From contig NZ_SZZM01000001.1 in assembly GCF_005281615.1 (NCBI RefSeq), positions 372,272-436,271 of the forward strand: 64,000 bases of DNA, given 5' to 3'. Shown in pieces: positions 52,430 to 63,815 of the stretch. Each line of letters opens with the position of its first letter. The stretch's first letter is position 1. The stretch comes from Rhodoligotrophos defluvii (GTDB lineage Bacteria; Pseudomonadota; Alphaproteobacteria; Rhizobiales; Im1). The notes under the pieces are model-generated. The model ran no database searches and was not told the origin of the DNA. It was given only the letters and a program-made list of their open reading frames with translations. The translations under genes and the position numbers were made by a program.

Positions 52430-53107
52430 TCAGCCAAACAGCGGCCAGATCCGGTTGAGAAGTTCGCCTCCGAACCAGAACACGAAAGCGACCCACGCTG
52501 CTGCCAGAATGGCCGCGACAAACGCGAGAATAAGTGCAAGCCCATCCCGCAAGATCAAGGCGAACGCGATCATGGCGATGGCGGCGACGGGCGGCACGTT
52601 GCCGAAAGGTATCGGCAACCCGATCATGATGGAGAGAGGCAGGATCATCAAACCCGCGACGCGGCCGGCCTGACGTCCGGCAAGCCACTTGAAGCGGCCC
52701 GGCGCGTGCAGGTATTCGATCGCAACCAGCCAGCCGCGCGCTCGCTTGCCGGCGTTTGTCAGCACTCTGGTTGAGACAGACCGCCGAGTGAGCACGGCGG
52801 GCAGCCACGGCTTGCGACGGCCAATGATCATCTGAATGGCAAGGACTGCAACCGCCGTGCCGAACACCATGCCGTATGGCCCCGGGATCGGAATGAGCGC
52901 TGGCAGCACGAGGACCAGAACCAGCATCGGGAACCCGGCCGCACCGAGTCGGTCGACCACATCACCGATCGCGATGCGATCCCGATCTTTGCAGGCCGCC
53001 AGCAGATCGTCGATTACTTCCGACGCGGTGGGCGGTACAGCGTCCTCGTCAACAGCCAGCACGCGACGATCTGATCCTCGTTTCTGAGTGATGGCAAGTC
53101 GGGGCAT
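52430..53107 (-). CDS. exoD: ExoD-family exopolysaccharide synthesis protein
   Basis: 225 residues: SEVIDDLLAACKDRDRIAIGDVVDRLG, then LPALIPIPGPYGMVFGTAVAVLAIQMIIGRRKPWLPAVL and three or four hydrophobic helices (MILPLSIMIGLPIPFGNVPP ... ALILAFVAAILAAAWVAFVFW). It matches ExoD, known from rhizobial polysaccharide and alkaline-stress phenotypes; the mechanism is unknown. ATG at 53137 is an alternative start. It lies just outside the decayed island. Confidence 0.85.
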   Translation of the reverse strand: MPRLAITQKRGSDRRVLAVDEDAVPPTASEVIDDLLAACKDRDRIAIGDVVDRLGAAGFPMLVLVLVLPALIPIPGPYGMVFGTAVAVLAIQMIIGRRKPWLPAVLTRRSVSTRVLTNAGKRARGWLVAIEYLHAPGRFKWLAGRQAGRVAGLMILPLSIMIGLPIPFGNVPPVAAIAMIAFALILRDGLALILAFVAAILAAAWVAFVFWFGGELLNRIWPLFG

Positions 53108-53138
53108 GTGTCTAGCCTCACGCTGTTCTTCCGGCATC

Positions 53139-53387
53139 TTATGCAAGGTCCAAGGCCAGCCGGATTGCTGCAAGTGCGCCAGCACAGGCCGTCGTGAATG
53201 CCGCGCGCGTATTGAGCATCTGTGACCGGTTTAACGCGACGACCAACCGATTGATGTCCGCGGCGCTCAGTTCCTCGCGCCGCGTGATCCGCCTGACCCG
53301 GTGACGGCCGGATGCCCACCAGAGCCAGGCGGATGCCATCGCAAAGCCGACGATGGAAAGATCGAGTATGGTGGAGAGGTTATGCAT
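53139..53387 (-). CDS. Small membrane-anchored protein, unrecognised
   Basis: 82 residues with an N-terminal helix (LSTILDLSIVGFAMASAWLWWASG), then a basic stretch (RHRVRRITRREELSAADINRL) and a second weak helix. No family recognised. It runs in the same direction as ExoD, 31 bases before it. Confidence 0.55.
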   Translation of the reverse strand: MHNLSTILDLSIVGFAMASAWLWWASGRHRVRRITRREELSAADINRLVVALNRSQMLNTRAAFTTACAGALAAIRLALDLA

Positions 53388-53477
53388 GTGTCGGCTGCTC
53401 GTTTTATGAACGTCCCTAGCGTCATCGCGGCCGCAAGCCAGTGAACGAACTGCGGCCCTCCCGTTGTCGCTCTGCGC

Positions 53478-53792
53478 TTACCCACTGGCGCCTTCTAGTG
53501 GCTCAAGAAACGGCCGGGCGGCGTCGATGGCTGCCACGCATTCCGGTGCAGCCTCGGTAAGCAGCGTGACCGGGTCGGCAAAACCGATCCAGACGCCGAA
53601 TGCGCTTGATGACGCCCACCACAGATCGTCCAAAGCACGGTTGACGATCTGCGCTCCTTGCTCGGTTACACAGGCGACGAGCGAGGCCACTACCTCCTGC
53701 GGGGCGCTGGTGTCGGCAAGCGACCTTGCGATGTCCTGCTGCAGCGGCTCGAGAAGAAGAAAGGTGATCAGGGCGACCAGCATGTCGTGCAT
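53478..53792 (-). CDS. Small protein, unrecognised
   Basis: 104 residues with an N-terminal hydrophobic start (MHDMLVALITFLLLEPL) and an amphipathic rest (VNRALDDLWWASSSAFGVWIGFADPVTLLTEAAPECVAAI). No motif recognised. It shares orientation with TerC and ExoD, so it may be part of one transcript. Confidence 0.5.
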   Translation of the reverse strand: MHDMLVALITFLLLEPLQQDIARSLADTSAPQEVVASLVACVTEQGAQIVNRALDDLWWASSSAFGVWIGFADPVTLLTEAAPECVAAIDAARPFLEPLEGASG

Positions 53793-53891
53793 TGTTTCAA
53801 CTCCTTGCGTCCGAACATGTCGAGCTCAATTCCAAGTGCGCCATCTGGCAGCCCTGGCGATGGACTTGCTGTCCAGCGCCAGGGCCGAGCC

Positions 53892-54899
53892 TTAGGGGCG
53901 CGGCAATTCTTCCGGCCCGATATGCGGCGGCTGAGACCGCGTCTTTACCAGGCTCCAGACCACGCCCGACGCGATGATAGCGAAGGTGATGCCAAGCGAG
54001 AGCGCGGCGGGGAACTTCTCGAGACCGAGCAGGTCAGCGACGAAGATCTTCGACCCGATGAAGATCAGCACGATCGCGAGCGCCGGCTTTAGGTATTGGA
54101 ACCGGTGGATCATCGCAGCGAGCGCGAAGTAGAGCGCGCGCAGGCCGAGAATGGCGAAGATGTTCGACGTGTAGACGATGAATGGGTCCGTCGTGATAGC
54201 GAAGATCGCCGGTACCGAATCCACGGCGAAGATCACGTCGGCGATCTCGACCATCACCAGCGCCATGAAAAGCGGCGTCATGAACCAGACGAGCTTGCCA
54301 GTTTTCGGATCGGGCTTCTTGACGAAGAAATCCTGGCCGTGGTGTTCGTCGGTCACGTTGAAGCGGCGCCGCAGGAAGCCGACGATGGGGTTATTGCCGA
54401 TCTCGGGCTCCTTGTCGCCGATCCACAGCATCTTGATGCCGGTGATCACCAGGAACGCGGCGAAGATGTAGAGCACCCAGGAGAACTGCGAGACGAGCGT
54501 CGCGCCGAGGCCGATCATGATGGCGCGCAGGACGATGACGCCGAGGATGCCCCAGAAAAGCACGCGGTGCTGGTATTTGCGCGGAACCGCGAAAAAGGAG
54601 AAAATCAGCGCGATGACGAAAACGTTGTCGAGCGCCAGCGTCTTTTCGACCACGAAACCCGTCACATAGTTCATACCGGATTCCGCGCCGAGCTGCCACC
54701 AGACAAAGCCGCCGAAGGCCAGACCGAGGGTGATGTACATCGACGACAGGATCAGGCTTTCGCGCACCTCGATCTCGTGATTGTCACGGTGAAGGACGCC
54801 GAGGTCGAAGACCAGAAGCGCGATAACAATCGAGATGAAGCCGAGCCACATCCAGACCGGCTTGCCGAGCCAGTCGGCGAACAGAAATGCAAATTCCAC
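53892..54899 (-). CDS. TerC/Alx-family membrane protein
   Basis: 335 residues with about nine helices. FDLGVLHRDNHEIEVRESLILSSMYITLGLAFGGFVWW, EKTLALDNVFVIALIFSFFAVP and VEIADVIFAVDSVPAIFAITTDPFIVYTSNIFAILGLRALYF match the Alx/TerC group (metal, often Mn2+, export or tolerance). The GTG at 54899 with GGAGAG is the start; the frame is open further up. I looked for a yybP-ykoY riboswitch in the leader and saw no convincing match. Confidence 0.9.
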   Translation of the reverse strand: MEFAFLFADWLGKPVWMWLGFISIVIALLVFDLGVLHRDNHEIEVRESLILSSMYITLGLAFGGFVWWQLGAESGMNYVTGFVVEKTLALDNVFVIALIFSFFAVPRKYQHRVLFWGILGVIVLRAIMIGLGATLVSQFSWVLYIFAAFLVITGIKMLWIGDKEPEIGNNPIVGFLRRRFNVTDEHHGQDFFVKKPDPKTGKLVWFMTPLFMALVMVEIADVIFAVDSVPAIFAITTDPFIVYTSNIFAILGLRALYFALAAMIHRFQYLKPALAIVLIFIGSKIFVADLLGLEKFPAALSLGITFAIIASGVVWSLVKTRSQPPHIGPEELPRP

Positions 54900-55000
54900 G
54901 TGAACTCTCCAGCCGGTCGTCCACGGTGAAAAAATGTCCGACATCGCGAGAGGACCGGCATCTCTCGCCAGAGGGGCCCGGACTGGGGCAATCAACATGT

Positions 55001-55030
55001 CCGCCGCCGATCCCGCAGGATCGGCGGCGG
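55001..55030. terminator. Perfect GC hairpin between two minus-strand genes
   Basis: CCGCCGCCGATCC, loop CGCA, GGATCGGCGGCGG: a 13-base perfect stem just downstream of the small membrane protein gene (stop 55039). It is likely a terminator for that minus-strand transcript, although no T run follows on either strand. Confidence 0.5.
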
Positions 55031-55038
55031 TAGACCAG

Positions 55039-55326
55039 CTAGGTTGCGGCCGAAGTCAAACGGCGGATCAGGACGGTCACAACGCCCAGGATCGCGACGC
55101 CGACAAGCCACACGATCGCGATCAGCGGTCCGTCAAGCGGCGCGGCGATCTGTGCGAACCAGGCGATCAGGCCATCGGCAGCGCCCATGCCGGCCATCCA
55201 GCCGACCGCCGCCTCGACGGCGGCATAGGCAGCAAGCGCGAGCAGCGACCATGCGACGATCAGGGCAACGCCGCCGTAGCCGACGACACGGTTGAGCTTT
55301 GCCGCTTGGCGCGGTTGAAGGTGCAT
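55039..55326 (-). CDS. Small two-helix membrane protein, unrecognised
   Basis: 95 residues with two hydrophobic helices (VGYGGVALIVAWSLLALAAYAAVEAAVGWM and LIAIVWLVGVAILGVVTVLI) and short charged ends. No family recognised. It starts 10 bases after the DUF465-like gene stop on the same strand, so they are probably one transcript. Confidence 0.6.
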   Translation of the reverse strand: MHLQPRQAAKLNRVVGYGGVALIVAWSLLALAAYAAVEAAVGWMAGMGAADGLIAWFAQIAAPLDGPLIAIVWLVGVAILGVVTVLIRRLTSAAT

Positions 55327-55336
55327 GGATGCGCCC

Positions 55337-55582
55337 TCACGCCCGCGGCCGCGCCATCGTTGGCGTGAAGGACCTGCGGCGGATCACTGGGATGACTGTC
55401 GCCTGCCCTTCCCGGTTGAGCCGCTCCAGATATTCGATCTGCTCGCGAAACCGCAGCTTGAGCTTCTTTAACCCGTAGAGCCTCAGGCTGTCGGGCGCGG
55501 GACGCGCCTGTTCATGCTCGATACGGGCCTGGATTTGTGCGCGACGATTGCGCAGCGAGTTCAGGAACGGGTCCATGTTCAT
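55337..55582 (-). CDS. DUF465/YdcH-like small protein
   Basis: 81 residues, a coiled-coil-like block (RRAQIQARIEHEQARPAPDSLRLYGLKKLKLRFREQIEYLERL) with the LKKLKLRLK-type core of DUF465/YdcH proteins, and a disordered tail. Function unknown. It starts divergent from the OxyR-like gene. Confidence 0.6.
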   Translation of the reverse strand: MNMDPFLNSLRNRRAQIQARIEHEQARPAPDSLRLYGLKKLKLRFREQIEYLERLNREGQATVIPVIRRRSFTPTMARPRA

Positions 55583-55634
55583 ACCTCCGTGTTGACCACG
55601 AGGCTGATTTGGGTATGCCTTTGCGATTGCGCCA

Positions 55635-55671
55635 ATTGATTGTTGAAATCGTCATGATAGTCGTCAACTAT
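55635..55671. promoter_or_regulatory. OxyR-type tetra-element site
   Basis: ATTG-N7-AAAT-N7-ATAG-N7-CTAT has exactly the spacing of the OxyR recognition site (ATAG-N7-CTAT-N7-ATAG-N7-CTAT); its right half is a perfect ATAG-N7-CTAT. It ends 5 bases before the ATG of the OxyR-like gene, so it fits autoregulation, and may also act on the divergent DUF465-like gene. Confidence 0.55.
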
Positions 55672-55676
55672 CAGCC

Positions 55677-56588
55677 ATGCCGTTCCGACCAACCCTGCGC
55701 CAGCTCGAATATGTCGTCGCCCTTGCCGAATGCGGTCATTTCGGCAAGGCCGCCAAGCGCTGCCATGTCTCGCAACCCACGCTGTCCGTTCAAATTGGGA
55801 TCGTCGAAGAAAATCTCGGCATCCAGCTCTTCGAGCGGACCTCGGCAGCGGTCCTGATCACGCCAGCCGGAGAACGCTTTCTCCATGGAGCACGCGTTAC
55901 GCTTGCCGCGATGACCGATCTGATGGATGCCGTCGCGCAGGACAGCGCTGCCTTGGGCGGTGTCGTCAGGCTGGGTACGCCTCCCAGCTTCGGGCCGTAC
56001 TTCCTGCCGACCTTCCTGCCGCCCCTCCACCGGACATATCCCGACCTCAGAATCTATATCGTCGAGGATCGCCCTGCCGCGATCGAAACCTCTGTCGCCG
56101 AAGGCACGCTCGATTGCGGTGTCGGCCCCTCATGCGGCGAGCCCTCCTTGACCTTCATCCCGATTGGCAGCGAGCGGCTTTATCTCGGCGTGCCGGCCGA
56201 TCACCGCTTTGCGCAAAGGCGATCCGTTGCCATGAAGGAGCTGGCAAACGAACGCCTTCTGGCACTGGGGAGCGGCAACCGTCTTTTGGAAAATGTCCAG
56301 CACCTGGCGAAGGCGTCGGGTGCGACGGTCGTCGACGACTATGTCGGCACCAGCCTCGACGCGATCCGCCAAATGGTCTCGATAGGTATGGGCTGTTCCC
56401 TGTTCCCAGAACTTTACGCACGGGCGGAGTTCCGCAACGCGGAAGACGTGCATCTCCTTGAGGTGAGCGACTGGCGCGAGACCCGCGAAGTCGGGGTCTA
56501 CTTCAGGACAACGGCCGGCCGCGCGGCGCATTTTGAGGAACTGGCCAAAAGGGCCAAGGATGCGGCACAGGCGCTCGGCGTCGGGTAG
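55677..56588 (+). CDS. LysR-family regulator, OxyR-like without redox cysteines
   Basis: 303 residues. The HTH is very OxyR-like (PTLRQLEYVVALAECGHFGKAAKRCHVSQPTLSVQI) and the effector domain matches OxyR throughout (RLYLGVPADHRFAQRR, TSLDAIRQMVSIGMGCSLFPELYA). The peroxide-sensing segment (E. coli GHCLRDQ...FC) here reads GNRLLENVQHLAKA, so both sensing cysteines are replaced. It therefore cannot use the classic disulfide switch. A tetra-element OxyR site precedes it. Confidence 0.85.
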   Translation: MPFRPTLRQLEYVVALAECGHFGKAAKRCHVSQPTLSVQIGIVEENLGIQLFERTSAAVLITPAGERFLHGARVTLAAMTDLMDAVAQDSAALGGVVRLGTPPSFGPYFLPTFLPPLHRTYPDLRIYIVEDRPAAIETSVAEGTLDCGVGPSCGEPSLTFIPIGSERLYLGVPADHRFAQRRSVAMKELANERLLALGSGNRLLENVQHLAKASGATVVDDYVGTSLDAIRQMVSIGMGCSLFPELYARAEFRNAEDVHLLEVSDWRETREVGVYFRTTAGRAAHFEELAKRAKDAAQALGVG

Positions 56589-57482
56589 CTAAACGACTCC
56601 GATCTGCGCCGAGCCCTGCTGCAGGAGCATTCGCAAGGCCGGGTTCGGAAAACGCCGTTCCATCGTCACGGCAAAGAAGGTCTCCGTGATCCCCAGCGGC
56701 TCATCGCCCTCGACGAGGAGGCCGGCCGCCAGCTCGTCCTTGACGACGATGGGCGGCAGGACGGCAAGGCCGACATCTTCGCGGGCCAGAAGCCGCATCA
56801 TCGCCATGTCCTCGACCTCCGCGACGATCTGCGGGCGCACCATCAGGCGATCGGCAAGAGCGTCGAAGCCGGCGCGCACGCTGCTCTCCAGCGTCGGTAC
56901 GATGACGGGATGGTCGCGCAAAAGATCGACGAGGCCCGCTCTGCCAAAAAACCGATGCGGCGTGCCGACGAGGCCGACTGGCTGTTCAGCGATCCGATGC
57001 GCCACGAAGGGCGTCAGTACATCACGCGCGGGCGCGTGGTTGATGAGCACGACGTCGAGGTTCAGTGCTTCCAGCGCGCGCAAAAGCTCGGCGGCCCCGC
57101 CGGAGCGCAAGACGAGCTCAATATCGGTCCGGCCGAGAACGGGCCGCAGAAACTCCATCTGGAAGTTGCGCGACAAGGTGGCGAGCGCCCCGACCCGCAG
57201 CGCCTGGCGCGCCGTACCGGTTTCGCGAAGCGTGCCTAGCAGTTCCTCCCCGGTCGCGAAGATCGCATCGGCATGGTCGAGCGCGATGCGGCCGGCTTCG
57301 GTCAGATGAAGCTGTCGTCCGCGCCGGTCGAAGAGCGCATGGCCGAGCTGCTCTTCAAGTTTGCGGATCTGCACCGAGAGCGCTGACTGGGTCAGGTTCA
57401 AGCGCGCGGCCGTGCGCGTGAGGTTGCCGTCGTGGGCGACGGCCCGGAAATACCGCAGATGGTGATAATTGAGCGCTGCCAT
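56589..57482 (-). CDS. LysR-family regulator, NhaR/CbbR-like, probably of the dab operon
   Basis: About 297 residues: HTH LRYFRAVAHDGNLTRTAARLNLTQSALSVQIRKLEEQLGHALFDR, then a LysR effector domain. Its stop touches that of the OxyR-like gene. Its ATG at 57482 has no ribosome site, because a palindrome (57484-57504) lies immediately before it; a leaderless or upstream start is possible. It is divergent from dabB, suggesting control of the carbon-uptake operon, as LysR proteins do for CO2-linked genes. Confidence 0.85.
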   Translation of the reverse strand: MAALNYHHLRYFRAVAHDGNLTRTAARLNLTQSALSVQIRKLEEQLGHALFDRRGRQLHLTEAGRIALDHADAIFATGEELLGTLRETGTARQALRVGALATLSRNFQMEFLRPVLGRTDIELVLRSGGAAELLRALEALNLDVVLINHAPARDVLTPFVAHRIAEQPVGLVGTPHRFFGRAGLVDLLRDHPVIVPTLESSVRAGFDALADRLMVRPQIVAEVEDMAMMRLLAREDVGLAVLPPIVVKDELAAGLLVEGDEPLGITETFFAVTMERRFPNPALRMLLQQGSAQIGVV

Positions 57483-57483
57483 G

Positions 57484-57504
57484 CCGTTCGATAATAGCGA
57501 ACGG
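57484..57504. promoter_or_regulatory. LysR-type operator CCGTTCG-N7-CGAACGG
   Basis: A perfect 7-base inverted repeat with a 7-base AT-rich spacer, containing the T-N11-A core of LysR sites. It lies directly before the LysR start and about 82 bases from dabB, in the 103-base divergent gap. It fits autoregulation and control of dab. Confidence 0.6.
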
Positions 57505-57585
57505 AATTGAGCAAACAATGCATTTTCTTTCGGAACGCGGCTCGGCTAGCAGCAGGGTGTCGCCACCGCACCCAAGGAAACCACC

Positions 57586-59157
57586 TTGTCGCTCAATCTG
57601 CTGCCGCTCGCCGCACCGCTGTTCCTGCTTCTCGCCGCACTGTTCGCGTCTTCGCGTCCGGGTCGAAGGGCCCCGCACGTAGCGGCCGTCGCCGAGCGAG
57701 CCGCCATGTCGGCCCTCGCTATCGCGGCCGGTTCGCTGGTTCTCCTACTGCTGCAGGGTCCGGGCGACAGCGCCCTCATAGGCTCGGCTGGTATAGGTCT
57801 CTCCGCGCGGCTCGACGTGATCAGCGTGACGATGCTGCTTCTGGTCTCCTTCGTCGGCTGGATCGTGCTGCGCTATTCGCGTACCTTGCTCGATGGCGAA
57901 GCACGGCAGGGCGCGTTCACAGGCTGGCTGTGCGCGGCGCTAGCCGCGGTCCTTCTCCTCGTTCAGGCCGGCAATCTCGTGCAACTGCTCGGCGCGTGGA
58001 TCGCGACGAGCTTTGCGCTCCATCGCTTGCTGCTCTTCTATCCCGAGCGCATCGGGGCGCAGCGCGCGGCGCGCAAGAAGCGGCTCTTCGCGGTCCTTGG
58101 CGCCCTGTCGCTGGCAGGCTCGGTGCTGTTGATGAGCGTGGCCTTCGGCACGACCGATATCGCCGCGATCAATACCATGGCGCGGACCGGCGACGTTTCC
58201 TGGCACGCGCCGGCAGCGGCGGGGTTACTGGCGCTCGCGGCGTTGTTGAAATCGGCCCAATTCCCGACCCATGGCTGGCTGACCGAGGTGATGGAGGCGC
58301 CGACGCCGGTCTCGGCGCTGCTCCATGCAGGCGTCATCAATGCCGGCGGCTTTCTCCTCATCCGCTTCGCTGACGTGATGCTGCTCGCGCCCGGCGTGCT
58401 GGCGGTGCTGGCGATGGTCGGCGGCTTCACCGCCCTCTTCGGCGCACTCGTCATGCTGACCCAGCCAGCAGTCAAGACCTCGCTCGCCTGGTCGACCGTG
58501 GCGCAGATGGGGTTCATGATCCTGCAATGCGGGCTGGCGCTGTTCCCGTTGGCACTGCTCCACATCGTCGCCCATTCGCTCTACAAGGCCCATGCTTTCC
58601 TGGCCTCGGGCGGTGCCGTCGAGCAGGTCGCCTCGATCCGCCGGCCGGGACCGGTGGCCATACCAGATGGCGGCGCGGTCGCCCGCGCCTTCTTCATCGC
58701 GTTGGCGATCTATGGCGCGATCGGTGCAGCCTTCGGTCTTGGCTTCGGGTTTGAGCACAAATCACCCCAATCGCTCGCACTCGGCGCCATCCTCATCTTC
58801 GGCGTCGCCTATCTGCTGGCCCAGGGGCTAGCGGATGCCGCACCGCGCGCCCTGACGACAAGGACAGCAATTTACGCGACCGCAGCTGCCCTCGGCTACT
58901 TCGCGCTCCAGACGGTGGCCGAATGGCTGACGGCGGGCGTGCTGCCGGCGACGCCCGCGCCGGGGAGGCTCGAATGGACCCTGATGGCGCTCGCCGTCCT
59001 GACCTTCGGCCTGGTCGCAGTCGCGCAGGCGCTGTTCCCGCTCTGGGCGGGCCATCCGGCGGCTGCCGGCCTGCGGGTTCATCTCTCCAACGGGCTTTAT
59101 GTCAACGCCATGCTCGATCGCATGCTGGGCGGCTGGTCCGTCCGCAAGCCCTCGTGA
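57586..59157 (+). CDS. dabB: DabB, proton-conducting membrane subunit of DAB carbon transporter
   Basis: 523 residues, an NADH-dehydrogenase subunit 5 (NuoL/MrpA)-like protein with about 13 helices; key signatures are [41 protein letters not shown] and [27 protein letters not shown]. It is followed by the DabA gene, the two-gene set that concentrates inorganic carbon by coupling cation flow to CO2 hydration. The start is a TTG with AAGGAA upstream. It lies divergent from the LysR gene. Confidence 0.88.
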
Positions 59158-59180
59158 CGCTCAAGGATCAGGAAAACCTC

Positions 59181-61604
59181 ATGCTGATGACTGTACACAA
59201 GACCCCACTTCCCGGCTCCGAAGCAGTCATGGCTGCGGCGCACGGCGCAGCGCGCGCCATCCCGCCGCTCTGGCCGCTGGCGTCCAGCGTCGCTGTCAAT
59301 CCGTTCCTTGGCCAGACGGGCGAACCGCTGGCTGTCGCCGCTGCGCGGTTGCGGCGGGTCGCCGGCATCCGGCTCAACATGCCGCGCGACTGGTATCGGG
59401 AGCGCCACCAAAGCGGCGAACTCACCGACGAAGATCTGGCCGAAGCGCTTGGAGCGGCGCCAGCATCAATGCGCCCAAAAACGGTTCCCGCGCTAAAGCA
59501 GGCATTGAATGTCGAGACGTCGGCGGCGCGGGCTTTGCCGACCGTCGCCGAGTTGGCGCGCGAGGCCAGCGGCATCGACTGGCAGGCCGTGGTCGATGAG
59601 CGCATCAGCCATTGGGCGGCAGGCTATTTCGATCAGGGCCAAGCGCTCTGGGCCGCAGCGCAAGGCCGCAGCGCCTATGCCTCCTGGCGCACCGTCGCCA
59701 TGCATGACCTGACCCCGGAGATCGTCGGCCTTGCCCGCTTCGCCGGCACCGTCGCGGACGCTCCCGAAAGCGCCGAGGCCGCCCTGATCGACGCCGTCGA
59801 GACGCTCGGCCTGTCCGAGTCGGCGCTGGAAAGCTGCTTCCACCGCCTGCTGGCAAGCCTGGGCGGCTGGGCGCAGCTCGCACGCTATCGCCTCTGGAAG
59901 GCCGCACTGGCAGGCGGGACCGACAAGACGGTGATCGATCTCCTTGCCATTCGTCTCGTTTGGGAAGCTGCACTTCTGCGGCAATACGAGCACGAGATCG
60001 GCACGCAATGGCGCGAGACCGTGACCGCCCATGCCGAACCGGTCGCCGCAAGCGCGGAGGATCATGTCGATGCGATCCTCCAGGAGGCCGCTGAGCGCGC
60101 CGCCCAGAGGCAGCTGCGGGCCCTCTTCGCCGAACCGCGGCCCGCCGTGCCGGCTTCGTCGCGTCCCGCGATGCAGATGGCCTTCTGCATCGACGTCCGC
60201 TCGGAGGTCTTTCGCAGGGCGCTGGAAACGCTCGATCCCGGGATCAGCACGCTCGGCTTCGCCGGTTTCTTCGGCATGGGGATCGCGCACCGCCGCTTCG
60301 GCTCGGACGTGGTGGAAGCCCGCCTGCCCGTTCTGCTCCGGCCCGGTCTCTTCACCTGCTCGGGAGAGCAGACGCCTGAGACCGAGCGCGCGGATCGCAC
60401 GGCACGGATCGCGGCCCGTGCCAAGCGTGCCTGGGGTCGCTTCAAGCTCGCCGCCGTCTCCTCCTTCGCCTTCGTCGAGGCGACGGGGCCAGTCTATGTC
60501 GGCAAGCTTCTTCGCGACGCGCTGGGGCTCACCCGCAATGCCGCACCGAACGACCCGGCGCCACGGCCGGCCGACACGATCGGCCTCGACCAGCGGATCG
60601 AGATGGCCGAAACCGTCCTCAGGGCCATGTCGCTCACCGATCGTTTCGCGAGGTTGGTGCTGATCGCCGGCCACGGCGCCAGTGTCGTCAACAACCCGCA
60701 TGCCAGTGCACTCCATTGCGGGGCCTGCGGCGGCTATTCGGGCGAGGTCAATGCCCGGCTGCTCGCCTCGCTGCTCAACGCGCCCGACGTGCGCACCAGC
60801 CTTCTCGCACGCGGCATCGTGGTTCCCGAAGACACCTTGTTCCTGGCGGCCCTCCACGACACGACGACCGACGACGTTACCATCTATGACGCCGATCATT
60901 CCTCGGTGGAGCACGCCGCGGACCTGACGGCGGCCAGGGGTTGGCTCCAGACCGCAGGCGGGCTCGCGCGGGCCGAACGGGCAAGGCGCCTGCCCCGCGC
61001 CGAGACACAGGCCGATATTGCCCGCCGCGCCCGCGACTGGGCCGAGTTGCGACCCGAATGGGCGCTCGCCGGCTGCCAGGCTTTCGTCGCCGCGCCTCGG
61101 TGGCGCACGACGGGTTGCGACCTGGGGGGCCGGGCGTTCCTGCATGATTATGACTGGCGGCGCGACGAAGGCTTCGGCGTGCTGGAACTAATCCTGACCG
61201 CACCGGTCGTCGTCGCGAGCTGGATCAGCCTGCAATATTACGGCTCAACCGTCGCGCCGGAAGTCTTCGGCGCCGGCAACAAGCTCCTGCACAACGTCAC
61301 AGGGGGAATCGGCGTCGTCGAAGGCAATGGCGGCCTCCTGCGCGCCGGCCTGCCCTGGCAGTCCGTCCATGACGGTAATGAGCTGGCGCATGAACCGCTG
61401 CGGCTCTCCGTCGTCATCGAGGCCCCGCAGAAGGCGATCACCGGCATCCTCGAGCGCCACGCGGACGTCCGGGCACTGCTCGACAATCGCTGGCTCCATC
61501 TCTTCGCCCTCGGCGAGGACGGCCGCATGGCCTGGCGTTACGCCGGCAACCTCTCCTGGGACGAAGCGGAGGTGGAAACCTTGCGACTTCAGGCGCACGC
61601 ATGA
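59181..61604 (+). CDS. dabA: DabA (DUF2309), zinc protein of DAB carbon transporter
   Basis: 807 residues. The carbonic-anhydrase-like active site is visible: [10 protein letters not shown] (Cys336, Asp338), then [18 protein letters not shown] (His498, Cys513). The His-Cys spacing of 15 equals that of Halothiobacillus DabA (His524, Cys539). The N-terminal [12 protein letters not shown] block is also typical. The ATG at 59181 follows AGGAAAACCTC. With DabB it is known to make bicarbonate from CO2 vectorially. The stop overlaps the next gene (ATGA). Confidence 0.93.
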
Positions 61605-62506
61605 AGACCTTCGTTCCGCAAGCTGTCCCCCTTGCAGACGCCGGCCACCGGTATTCACCCTATGCCTGCCGGCATGCCGTGCTCGCCACGATGCACGGAA
61701 AGGAGGAAGCAATCGCGCCCGTCCTGCGCGACCGGCTCGGACTGATCGTCTCGTCCGCGCCGGATATCGACACCGACGCACTCGGCACCTTCACCGGCGA
61801 GATCCCGCGCGCCGGCACCATCCGCGAGGCGGCAATCGCCAAGGCGCGGCTGGGCATGAAGGCAACCGGCTTGCCGATCGGCCTTGCCAGCGAAGGCAGC
61901 TACGGCCCGCACTCGCAGATCCCATTCGTTCCCGGTGGGGTCGAGCTCATGGTGCTCGTCGACGATATGCGCGGCATCGTCGTCAGCGAGCATCTGATCG
62001 AGGACGCGCCGGTCTTCGGCCACGGTTATGTAGTTGCTGGCGACGATGTGACGCCCATCCTGGATCGTCTCGGCTTTCCCGCGCACGCCTTGATCGTGAA
62101 GCCGGCCGAGAGCGAAGGTGGAGCAGGCAACATCCACAAGGGCCTGCGCGACAGAACCGCGCTCGAGCTGGCCGTCATGTCGGCTAAGGCGCAATCGGAC
62201 GACGGCCGGGCGCTGATCCAGACCGATATGCGCGCCCACATGAACCCGACCCGGATGGCGACGCTCGGCCGCCTTGCCTCTGCTCTCGCCGAACGGCTTT
62301 CCGCGCTGTGCCCGGCCTGCCGCACGCCCGGCTACGGACAGGTCGATGTCGAGATCGGCTTGCCTTGCGAATGGTGCGGGACGCCGAGCCTCATGGTCCG
62401 CCACCGCGTCTTCGGCTGCGTCGCCTGCCCGCATCGTGAGAACCGGCCGCGCGGCGACGGGCTGACCAAGGCCGATCCGGGACACTGTCCCTTGTGCAAC
62501 CCATGA
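61601..62506 (+). CDS. Zinc-ribbon-like protein of the dab operon, possibly DUF6671
   Basis: 301 residues. The first 230 have no motif I can name ([40 protein letters not shown] is a striking block). The C-terminus has four CxxC pairs (CPAC, CEWC, CVAC, CPLC), enough for two zinc-ribbon sites. It overlaps dabA by ATGA, so it is translated with it. I recall a DUF6671 family of this shape, but am unsure. A helper for zinc loading or assembly of DabA is only a guess. Confidence 0.6.
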
Positions 62507-62527
62507 CCGGACGATGGAGAAAGGCCG

Positions 62528-62746
62528 ATGACGAAAGCTGATGACGCGCCGCAGACCAATGACGAGCGGATCGCCTGGGTTCTGGCGCATCCTCGGATGA
62601 GCCCATGGCTGAAGGCGGCCCTCGAAGGCGCCAGGAAATGCCATCCGGTGGAAGTGCAAAACGATCTTGAGATTCTCAATCTGCTCCTGCGTGCGTATGT
62701 CGCCGAAGGCCTCGGCGCCAACGTGCGGAATTCGAACATGACGTGA
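62528..62746 (+). CDS. 72-residue protein at the end of the dab operon
   Basis: 72 residues, helical and charged (RIAWVLAHPRMSPWLKAALEGARKC, VQNDLEILNLLLRAYVAE). ATG with GAGAAAGG upstream, 21 bases after the previous stop. No family recognised. Its place suggests it belongs to the operon. Confidence 0.6.
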   Translation: MTKADDAPQTNDERIAWVLAHPRMSPWLKAALEGARKCHPVEVQNDLEILNLLLRAYVAEGLGANVRNSNMT

Positions 62747-63007
62747 AGTGTGTGGTGATAGGGTCAGTGGCGTCGCATCTGATGCTGGGGCCGGTCGGCT
62801 ACGACCGTTTACGGCTTCCGTCCACCAGATTCTGATGGCCGCAATGGGCCTACGCTGACCAAGCAAACTTTGCCCAACAGGGCAGTGCGGGAAAGGCAGC
62901 TAACCGCCAAGCGCTTCCAACAGCGGACCGTCCGGACTTGATGCGGTGGACGGCTCTCCTCCCTCCCTGCGGTATGATCGCGGGATTGAAGATGGAGGAG
63001 CACCACG

Positions 63008-63256
63008 ATGAGCAACATTGTGACGATCGGTTTGGATATTGCAAAGTCCGTTTTTCAGGTCCACGCGGTGGATTCGTCCGGCGAGGTTGTTGTTCGCCGA
63101 AAGCTGACGCGAGGGCGTGTCCTCGCCTTCTTCGAAAGTCTGCCACGATGCGTGATCGGGATCGAGGCCTGCAGTTCCTCGCACTATTGGGCTCGCGAGC
63201 TGATCGCACTCGGCCATGATGTGCGGCTGCTGCCGGCACAGTACGTAAAGCCCTAT
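63008..63256 (+). mobile_element. IS110-family transposase, 5' fragment
   Basis: Starting at ATG 63008 (after GGAGGAG), the product reads IVTIGLDIAKSVFQVHAVDSSGEVVVRRKL, ..VIGIEACSSSHYWARELIALGHDVRLLPAQYVKPY. That is the RuvC-like DEDD N-terminus of IS110 transposases. Sequence after KPY departs from the family, which should continue KRQKNDAADAEA. The rest of the insertion sequence is missing. The upstream 62.7-63.0 kb stretch contains no other gene. Confidence 0.85.
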
Positions 63257-63514
63257 TCCTGGCGGCTCAATTCCTCCTATCATCCTCGCAACGACTATGC
63301 GGCCGACGTGAAGGCGATGCCCTCGAACAGTCTGGTGCTCGTCGGCGACAAGGATGAGGCCGTCGACAGTACCGCGCTACTCGATCTGTTGAAGGCCAGC
63401 GGCTACCGCGGACGCGCAGAAGTTCTGGCGGAGACGACACATTTCGGTATCTTCCACGATGCCGAGGCACTGAAGCGAATGACCGATTTCATCGCGACTG
63501 TGCCGGTGCCCTGA
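63257..63514 (+). pseudogene. C-terminal fragment of an alpha/beta hydrolase, fused in frame to the transposase start
   Basis: Continuing in the transposase frame, SWRLNSSYHPRNDYAADVKAMPSNSLVLVGDKDEAVDSTALLDLLKASGYRG then TTHFGIFHDAEALKRMTDFI looks like the end of an alpha/beta hydrolase (the Asp of GDKDE and the His of TTHFG being catalytic). The nucleophile half is gone. The junction falls in the shared Pro-Tyr at about 63251-63256. A deletion joining IS110 to the hydrolase best explains it. Confidence 0.72.
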
Positions 63515-63815
63515 TACGAGTGGTTCTCAACCGATCGGCTGCGCGCGCGGGAACTGGTTCAAGATGCCCCGGCAATGGTTCCAAACGGGTTCGGTACCCA
63601 ATGTGACTTCAGCTCACGACTTAGCGGCGATCCAGAGTTGCCGGCCGGCTTCGTGCCCCCACTATGCCGACAAGCAAATGCTGATACGGCAGGTTTCGGG
63701 TGCTCCGCAACCCAGACTCAACGTCTGACTAGGGGTCGGAAGCTGTCGCAAAATATGGTCGAAAGATATGTCTTTGTCGTGAAGGTTGTCGCTCCAACAA
63801 CATGGAGCGCAAGAA
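63515..63815. other. Gene-free stretch before the integrase
   Basis: 301 bases without a gene. The 63750-63800 part is AT-richer and may hold the promoter of the recombinase gene; an element end could lie here but I find no clear repeat. Confidence 0.35.

Follow-up and report, generated by a model that had tools for sequence, protein, structure and literature searches.

Our analysis of a 64,000-nucleotide stretch of the Rhodoligotrophos defluvii genome (the window, from contig NZ_SZZM01000001.1) identifies an operon that, to judge by its sequence, is a genuine dab operon for a dissolved inorganic carbon (DIC) pump standing next to a LysR-family regulator gene. The third gene of this operon belongs to an already named Pfam family, DUF6671 (PF20376), whose name assigns no function; this corrects an earlier note on the same DNA. 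The linkage of DUF6671 to DIC uptake is real and is wider than that note held. DUF6671 accompanies a number of bicarbonate or CO2 transport systems that are unrelated to one another, and it therefore probably belongs to a general response to scarce CO2 rather than serving as the helper of this one pump. We consider it probable that the window carries a mobile, LysR-controlled low-inorganic-carbon module, and that DUF6671 is a low-CO2-response enzyme recruited beside varied DIC uptake systems. The operon and the region in front of it are laid out as follows.

56589-57482, minus strand: LysR-family regulator gene with an ATG start, divergent from dabB (PF00126, 79.5 bits; PF03466, 76.3 bits)
57484-57504, no strand: perfect 21-bp palindrome CCGTTCG-N7-CGAACGG, read from the sequence and predicted to be a likely LysR operator
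57586-59157, plus strand: dabB, 523 residues, proton-channel-like membrane subunit (PF00361, 128 bits against a cut-off of 21.5, 5e-37)
59181-61604, plus strand: dabA, 807 residues, carbonic-anhydrase-like subunit (PF10070, 894 bits against a cut-off of 25)
61601-62506, plus strand: DUF6671 gene, the third gene, 301 residues (PF20376, 144.7 bits against a cut-off of 23.8, 4.5e-42)
62528-62746, plus strand: fourth gene, 72-residue helical protein with no Pfam family

These open reading frames (ORFs) match the order that the earlier note had read, in which a divergent LysR gene is followed by dabB, dabA, an overlapping CxxC protein and a 72-residue protein. The DUF6671 gene and dabA overlap by 4 bases, and dabB begins with a TTG codon preceded by AAGGA, a start that the annotation of plasmid pMET1 also uses.

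The gene pair agrees well with the DAB/DAC systems, as a DabB of the proton_antipo_M family stands beside a PF10070 DabA and both score above their cut-offs. When the window DabA is aligned with DabA2 of Halothiobacillus neapolitanus (PDB 9rd0; E 1.7e-181), C336, D338, R340, H498 and C513 fall on C351, D353, R355, H524 and C539, residues that the available passages of the structural paper give as the zinc ligands and the Asp-Arg dyad (PMC13144422). The Cys2His zinc site with its Asp-Arg dyad is complete in the window protein, its residues are those of DabA2, and the metal residues that the earlier note had picked out (Cys336, Asp338, His498 and Cys513) all align with this site. DabB and DabA, if they behave as their homologues do, would act together as a membrane-energised CO2 hydratase that works in one direction only and fills the cell with HCO3-. 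DabA2-DabB2 of H. neapolitanus and MpsAB of Staphylococcus aureus comprise the same two proteins; compared with them, the window operon has two further genes behind dabA. H. neapolitanus DAB2, according to the available passages, consists of two subunits and can rescue E. coli deficient in carbonic anhydrase; its purified fusion carries one zinc per molecule (PMC13144422). A third subunit is known for DAB1, where it is a small membrane protein (PMC13144422, same passages), whereas the third gene of the window encodes a zinc-ribbon protein. The host genome as a whole gave one DabA match, one DUF6671 match and a single weak match to the RuBisCO large subunit (79 bits), perhaps a RuBisCO-like protein.

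To define the neighbourhood of DUF6671 we compared 91 loci, consisting of the best 80 of at least 586 confirmed genome loci, ranked by similarity to the window protein, and 11 of 12 plasmid records, the one left out being the second plasmid of Arthrobacter sp. U41. The scan behind the genome loci gave at least 594 pattern matches. DUF6671 was placed in all 91 by tblastn, including three loci (L032, L068 and L112) that lacked a DUF6671 call in the gene map; the identities of neighbours rest on one representative per cluster. A DabA gene lies no more than 5 kb from DUF6671 in 39 of these loci, DabB is found in 33, SbtA in 14, CmpB in 9 (one of them, L084, being a urea ABC transporter) and P-II in 8, and 57 of the 91 hold at least one DIC uptake marker (DabA, SbtA or CmpB). 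Judging by the names of the records, the pairing of DUF6671 with DIC uptake spans Alpha-, Gamma- and Betaproteobacteria, Actinobacteria, Bacillota, Cyanobacteria and further groups. These loci are not independent lineages, because the set includes near relatives (L105-L107 and the Methylocystis loci), varies in flank length according to where contigs end and was ranked by similarity. At L084 (11073-19116), dabBA and DUF6671 are followed by the urea ABC transporter and a urea carboxylase, which is HCO3--dependent; we rejected that transporter as a Cmp system, and the locus still counts through its DabA.

The cmpABCD, sbtA/sbtB, bicA and flavodiiron genes of cyanobacteria are induced by low CO2, and in Cyanobium and Synechococcus loci DUF6671 is found among genes of this kind. 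Six loci from Synechococcus, Cyanobium and Vulcanococcus (L064, L050, L052, L059, L091 and L110) place DUF6671 among cmp genes, and several of them also hold sbtA/P-II or flavodiiron-like genes, the latter being our own name for a Pfam pattern that we take to mark them; such loci offer a natural model for a low-CO2 role.

Support that does not depend on similarity ranking comes from a sampled set of 71 loci. It comprises 14 alphaproteobacterial loci, of which 13 come from a class sample and one from another search (neither the window's own locus nor the G187 remnant was used). The phylum of Cyanobium contributes a further 51 loci and that of Pseudonocardia 6. The control was 40 arbitrary 19-kb stretches drawn from the genomes of the sampled set and of two ranked-set loci; 28 of the 40 are cyanobacterial and some genomes were used twice. 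DabA, SbtA or CmpB was encoded in 17 of the 71 loci and in none of the 40 control stretches. The ABC transporter of L154 proved to be of the nitrate type when compared with CmpA and NrtA, so that not every ABC neighbour could be accepted as Cmp and this locus was dropped. The corrected count is 16 of 71 against 0 of 40 (p = 3.9e-4), made up of 10 of 20 loci outside the cyanobacteria and 6 of 51 within. Two sampled loci also occur in the ranked set (L122 is L113, and L180 is L092); without them the difference persists at 14 of 69 against 0 of 40 (p = 9.6e-4) and, outside the cyanobacteria, at 9 of 19 against 0 of 12 (p = 0.005). Among 14 substrate-binding proteins of ABC transporters, of which L092 and L180 represent the same locus, 13 were nearer to the Cmp than to the Nrt type; L064 and L170 were compared with CmpA (PDB 2i48) and NrtA (2g29), and 11 others with L064, L170 and L154. 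The count leaves out the isolated ABC genes of L123-L128. In a single case, L178, a BicA-like SulP gene lies directly upstream of DUF6671, its product scoring 864.7 bits and so falling below the cut-off of 880.

The earlier note had proposed that the extra proteins may load zinc into DabA or tune it to CO2. On such a reading the CxxC protein would be a metallochaperone for DabA, or would tune DabA towards CO2, and the 72-residue protein would be its helper. The eight invariant cysteines of DUF6671, the overlap of its gene with dabA and its position directly downstream of dabA on the same strand in 15 of the 91 loci (under a tight distance criterion) are what one would expect of such a protein. 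Nevertheless, each family also occurs without the other. Among 385 evenly sampled alphaproteobacterial genomes, counting that of the window, DUF6671 occurs in 14 and DabA in 48; both are present in 8 (in one of these, G187, DUF6671 is reduced to a remnant with two stops), while 6 genomes with DUF6671 gave no DabA match and 40 with DabA gave no DUF6671 match. Co-occurrence is far above chance, as DabA is present in 8 of the 14 genomes with DUF6671 and in 40 of the other 371 (p = 5.6e-5), but the CxxC protein does not always follow dabA. Of 292 genomes sampled from the phylum of Cyanobium, 52 carried DUF6671, and of 296 from that of Pseudonocardia 7 did, with the starting genomes counted. DUF6671 also accompanies SbtA, Cmp or the BicA-like protein with no DabA nearby, and DAB2 holds its zinc and rescues E. 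coli as a two-subunit system, according to the available text (PMC13144422). Moreover, the conserved non-cysteine residues K34, E98, E115, D209, R211 and R218 look like an enzyme site. We have dropped the zinc-loader proposal, to which we would now assign hardly any likelihood. What stands of the earlier note is the dab pump and the true linkage of the third gene to it, and the condition that the note gave as refuting its idea, that the extra genes occur next to dab in this genome alone, does not hold, since DUF6671 adjoins dab in several phyla. DUF6671 would accordingly not be a part of DabA; it would accompany whichever DIC system its host uses, be it DAB, SbtA/SbtB, a Cmp ABC transporter or, singly, a BicA-like protein.

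All 75 aligned DUF6671 homologues, and five more proteins, retain the four CxxC pairs (C237/240, C256/259, C273/276 and C296/299) that the earlier note had already remarked upon, and the same is true of H32, K34, R70, K81, E98, E115, D209, R211 and R218. The alignment holds 74 of 80 candidate proteins together with that of the window; one fragment was omitted, and five proteins were left out that carry SxHxK where the others carry TxHxK, so that position 30 is either T or S. These conserved residues and the eight cysteines make DUF6671 look like an enzyme. An AlphaFold2 model built from the 75-sequence alignment has a mean pLDDT of 92.3 and a pTM of 0.86, and the top Foldseek matches of this model are RdgB, YjjX and Maf, with probability 1.0 (E 3.3e-5 for RdgB, PDB 1k7k, and weaker for the others). 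Structural comparison in VIA aligned the model with 1vp2 (Z 12.6, 4.3 A over 140 residues), 2q16 (Z 12.5, 3.8 A over 137), YjjX 1u5w (Z 12.4, 3.1 A over 131) and HcgB 5d5q (Z 11.6, 2.6 A over 115).

The predicted fold shared with the ITPase superfamily (RdgB/HAM1, YjjX, Maf and also HcgB) spans residues 23-243. DUF6671 differs from that superfamily in having an extra alpha/beta lobe at residues 139-211, similar to the ATP-grasp lid, and a zinc ribbon at the C-terminus that holds the eight cysteines. In VIA only residues 139-211 match an ATP-grasp protein, at its lid lobe (7wae, Z 10.8, 1.6 A over 70 residues), and position 167, at the place of the ATP-binding lysine of ATP-grasp proteins (VKP motif), is Arg in 62 of 75 sequences and Lys in 5 of 75. 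By the register of a profile alignment, the T/SxHxK motif presumably sits at the place of the S/TxNxxK loop of RdgB, and E98 presumably where YjjX has a glutamate. The model predicts an ITPase-like (RdgB/YjjX/Maf) domain joined to zinc ribbons, and such a protein would most likely bind a nucleotide and hydrolyse or transfer it.

A fold of this kind raises the prospect that DUF6671 is a general nucleotide-cleaning enzyme, merely hitch-hiking on mobile islands that carry dab and other genes. The window copy does lie inside a recently transferred block, and most of the sampled cyanobacterial copies have no DIC neighbour. Chance companionship does not, on the other hand, account for a pairing with different DIC systems across many bacterial groups, nor for the excess over the control stretches in the sampled set (16 of 71 against 0 of 40), and we judge this alternative quite unlikely.

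If DUF6671 is a low-CO2-response enzyme, its likeliest job would be to cope with the metabolic failure that follows when CO2 or HCO3- runs short, since in many loci its other neighbours are spare enzymes dependent on CO2, on HCO3- or on a carbamylated lysine. Metabolic neighbours were annotated if they recurred in at least 4 loci. In the ranked set they include IlvD (12 loci), Sua5 (10), MurF or Mur-like proteins (8), PyrC (7), FolC and an MmdA-type carboxylase (5 each), and PurE, PurK and crotonyl-CoA carboxylase/reductase (4 each). The Mur count takes in short Mur-like proteins beside dabB in L060, L086 and L102 (286-317 residues, MurF identity not established), that of L086 lying at a contig end, and a 186-residue piece in L031. 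An enzyme of CO2, HCO3- or carbamate chemistry is encoded in 35 of the 91 loci, a DIC marker or such an enzyme in 71, and neither in 20. Sua5, PurE/PurK and the carboxylases handle CO2 or HCO3-, with Sua5 and PurK using HCO3-, and FolC and MurF carry a lysine carbamate. The available passages of three further papers describe a carbamylated active-site lysine in the IlvD/EDD family (PMC5770437), place dihydroorotase in a lysine carbamate family (PMC8659124) and report a lysine carbamate in MurD and MurE (PMC3829189).

The CDK motif of IlvD is kept in all 12 full-length neighbour copies. Alignment with solved structures shows that the corresponding lysines, which we take to be the modified ones, are likewise kept in the one PyrC and the one MurF compared. 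We therefore rejected the idea that the neighbours are CO2-independent variants; with their carbamylated lysines kept, they are better described as spare copies. In 5 of 6 genomes inspected at least two ilvD genes passed the cut-off, two murF genes were present in 3 of 6 and more than one class II pyrC in 2 of 6. Other recurrent neighbours are isocitrate dehydrogenase (18 loci), TerC (10) and CysD (8). Isocitrate dehydrogenase is often close to DUF6671 (L042, L063, L066, L076, L077, L081 and L090; also L094, L095, L098, L177, L179 and L182), and one representative scores 677 bits against TIGR02924. CysD, the sulfate adenylyltransferase subunit 2, is encoded between dabA and DUF6671 or beside DUF6671 in L026, L035, L051, L086, L119 and L130.

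It is tempting to speculate that DUF6671 marks mobile low-CO2 survival islands that have gone unrecognised, each combining one DIC system with spare copies of CO2-limited enzymes, and that DUF6671 acts on the same weakness; this larger proposal is possible, and we offer it tentatively. The spare enzymes would then be of two kinds, consumers of HCO3- or CO2 (Sua5, PurEK and the carboxylases) and enzymes with a carbamylated lysine (IlvD, PyrC, MurF and FolC), and DUF6671 might, for example, be an ATP-using restorer of lysine carbamates or a clearer of nucleotide by-products of stalled carboxylation. The literature searched did not contain the word DUF6671, and nothing was found in it that joins low CO2 or bicarbonate with threonylcarbamoyl, or a carbamylated lysine with the Fe-S dehydratase. 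In the available text of a 2024 review of DIC toolkits (PMC10880623), the terms 'hypothetical', 'gene neighborhood' and 'genome context' are absent. The available text of a paper on bicarbonate depletion in S. aureus does not name ilvD, pyrC, purK or murF, and reports that carboxylases were not overexpressed, which argues against a simple compensation idea (PMC11394868). Among viral contigs, none of 15 pattern matches encodes DUF6671.

A published cousin of the window operon was described in another context. The och operon of Leptospirillum sp. CF-1 comprises a nuoL-like gene, a DUF2309 gene, the hypothetical gene ABH19_09595 and a dihydroxy-acid dehydratase gene, co-transcribed according to reverse transcription PCR, with Sua5 adjoining, and was published as a chromate and oxidative-stress operon (PMC9080137, available passages). 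Translated in one of their frames, two of the four printed ABH19_09595 primers give GKEAVI and SLCPV, which fit the HGKExxI and xLCPxC motifs of DUF6671; on this primer evidence ABH19_09595 is likely, though not proven, to be a DUF6671 gene. The och operon and the window would then share nuoL/dabB-like, dabA and DUF6671 genes, to which och adds ilvD and the adjoining Sua5. The passages of the paper that were available do not name DabA or DUF6671 and mention no 72-residue gene (PMC9080137). By its content, the chromate operon can be re-read as a dab operon for DIC.

The same operon speaks for a rival reading, in which the module would be a response to oxidative, chromate or metal stress, with DUF6671, DabAB, TerC, CysD and IlvD protecting or replacing metal-sensitive or Fe-S enzymes, along the lines proposed for och itself. 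Chromate induces the och operon, and E. coli gains tolerance to chromate and H2O2 from the dabA homologue of och, as the available passages report (PMC9080137); TerC in 10 and CysD in 8 of the 91 loci point the same way. This reading leaves the SbtA, Cmp, BicA-like, PurE/PurK, Sua5, FolC, PyrC and MurF neighbours unexplained, and we regard it as unlikely.

Several observations weigh against a low-CO2 role for DUF6671 or against parts of the argument for it. Without the shared loci, the DIC link within cyanobacteria is not significant (5 of 50 against 0 of 28, p = 0.10), and most sampled cyanobacterial copies stand without a DIC neighbour, only 7 of 51 having one even when the BicA-like protein is counted. 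CO2, HCO3- or carbamate enzymes are not significantly enriched in the sampled set (4 of 71 against 1 of 40, p = 0.40), and in the ranked set (35 of 91 against 1 of 40) the enzyme families were chosen from the very loci in which they were counted. The enzyme theme consequently rests on the ranked set and the published och operon, and it may be limited to lineages around DAB islands. Isocitrate dehydrogenase, CysD, TerC and thymidylate kinase fit a CO2 theme poorly. The only expression data found, those for och, concern chromate and ferric iron rather than low CO2, and ABH19_09595 is given as an 823-residue, 92-kDa, membrane-located protein, quite unlike DUF6671 (PMC9080137, available passages); the 823-residue figure may be a slip, because it equals the size stated for the preceding gene. 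As for the fold, Foldseek TM-scores by query length are low (0.25-0.29 for the top four and 0.26 for 1k7k, at a root-mean-square deviation of 7-8 A), and hhalign gave a weak match, although in a sensible register, to an RdgB profile built from 17 of 30 fetched loci (probability 5.3%, E 0.0074, 60 columns). Membership of the ITPase superfamily thus rests on the predicted fold. Taken together with these points, the repeated pairing with unrelated DIC systems still leads us to favour a low-CO2-response enzyme.

The region in front of dabB is consistent with control by the divergent LysR protein. The perfect palindrome noted earlier is present, but alone it is only moderately unusual, as shuffling the mononucleotides of the 103-bp intergenic region yields a 7-base arm with a spacer of 3-9 in 3.5% of cases. 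A TTCG/T-type dyad with a 7-base spacer was found in 5 of 14 other LysR-divergent intergenic regions (L026, L037, L049, L057 and L084), in one of which, L037, it precedes a Sua5 gene rather than dabB. No such dyad was seen in six of the 14 regions inspected; those of L025 and L036, which are near-identical copies, were sliced past the dyad, and that of L039 came out empty. The top NCBIfam model for the LysR protein is NhaR, at 97.1 bits against a cut-off of 219, so it is weakly NhaR-like and not a member of that family. CO2 or HCO3- status is the obvious candidate for its signal, and the module would then be induced at low CO2.

Homologues of the 72-residue protein were found in nine loci (L025, L026, L035-L038, L040, L119 and L130), each time behind DUF6671 and with dabA in the locus, and 6 of the 91 ranked loci carry one. 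Its structural model is helical (pLDDT 75.6, from 3 sequences). It is a narrow-range accessory of dab-DUF6671 operons, perhaps acting as a small helical partner.

The surroundings of the operon in the window bear directly on its mobility.

53064-63256, no strand: 10.2-kb block with 99.9% identity to plasmid pMET1 of Aminobacter sp. NyZ550 and to a contig of Mesorhizobium microcysteis
53892-54998, minus strand: gene for a TerC-family membrane protein within the shared block (PF03741, 177 bits)
63008-63514: IS110-family transposase remnant just behind the operon (79 bits, covering the model's first quarter)

Besides the dab operon, the block contains the TerC gene, another LysR gene and a portion of the IS110-family remnant, and its 99.9% identity across genera indicates that the whole set moved recently between them. 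Beyond it, an ORF starting at 63786 runs open to the end of the window.

If the low-CO2 reading of DUF6671 is right, one uncharacterised family would tie together the DAB, SbtA, Cmp and perhaps BicA uptake systems, and would show how heterotrophs and autotrophs alike prepare for low CO2. It would also provide a handle on which essential enzymes are limited by the CO2 of air through their need for HCO3- or a lysine carbamate. Further, it could prove helpful to include DUF6671 when transferring CO2 pumps to new hosts.

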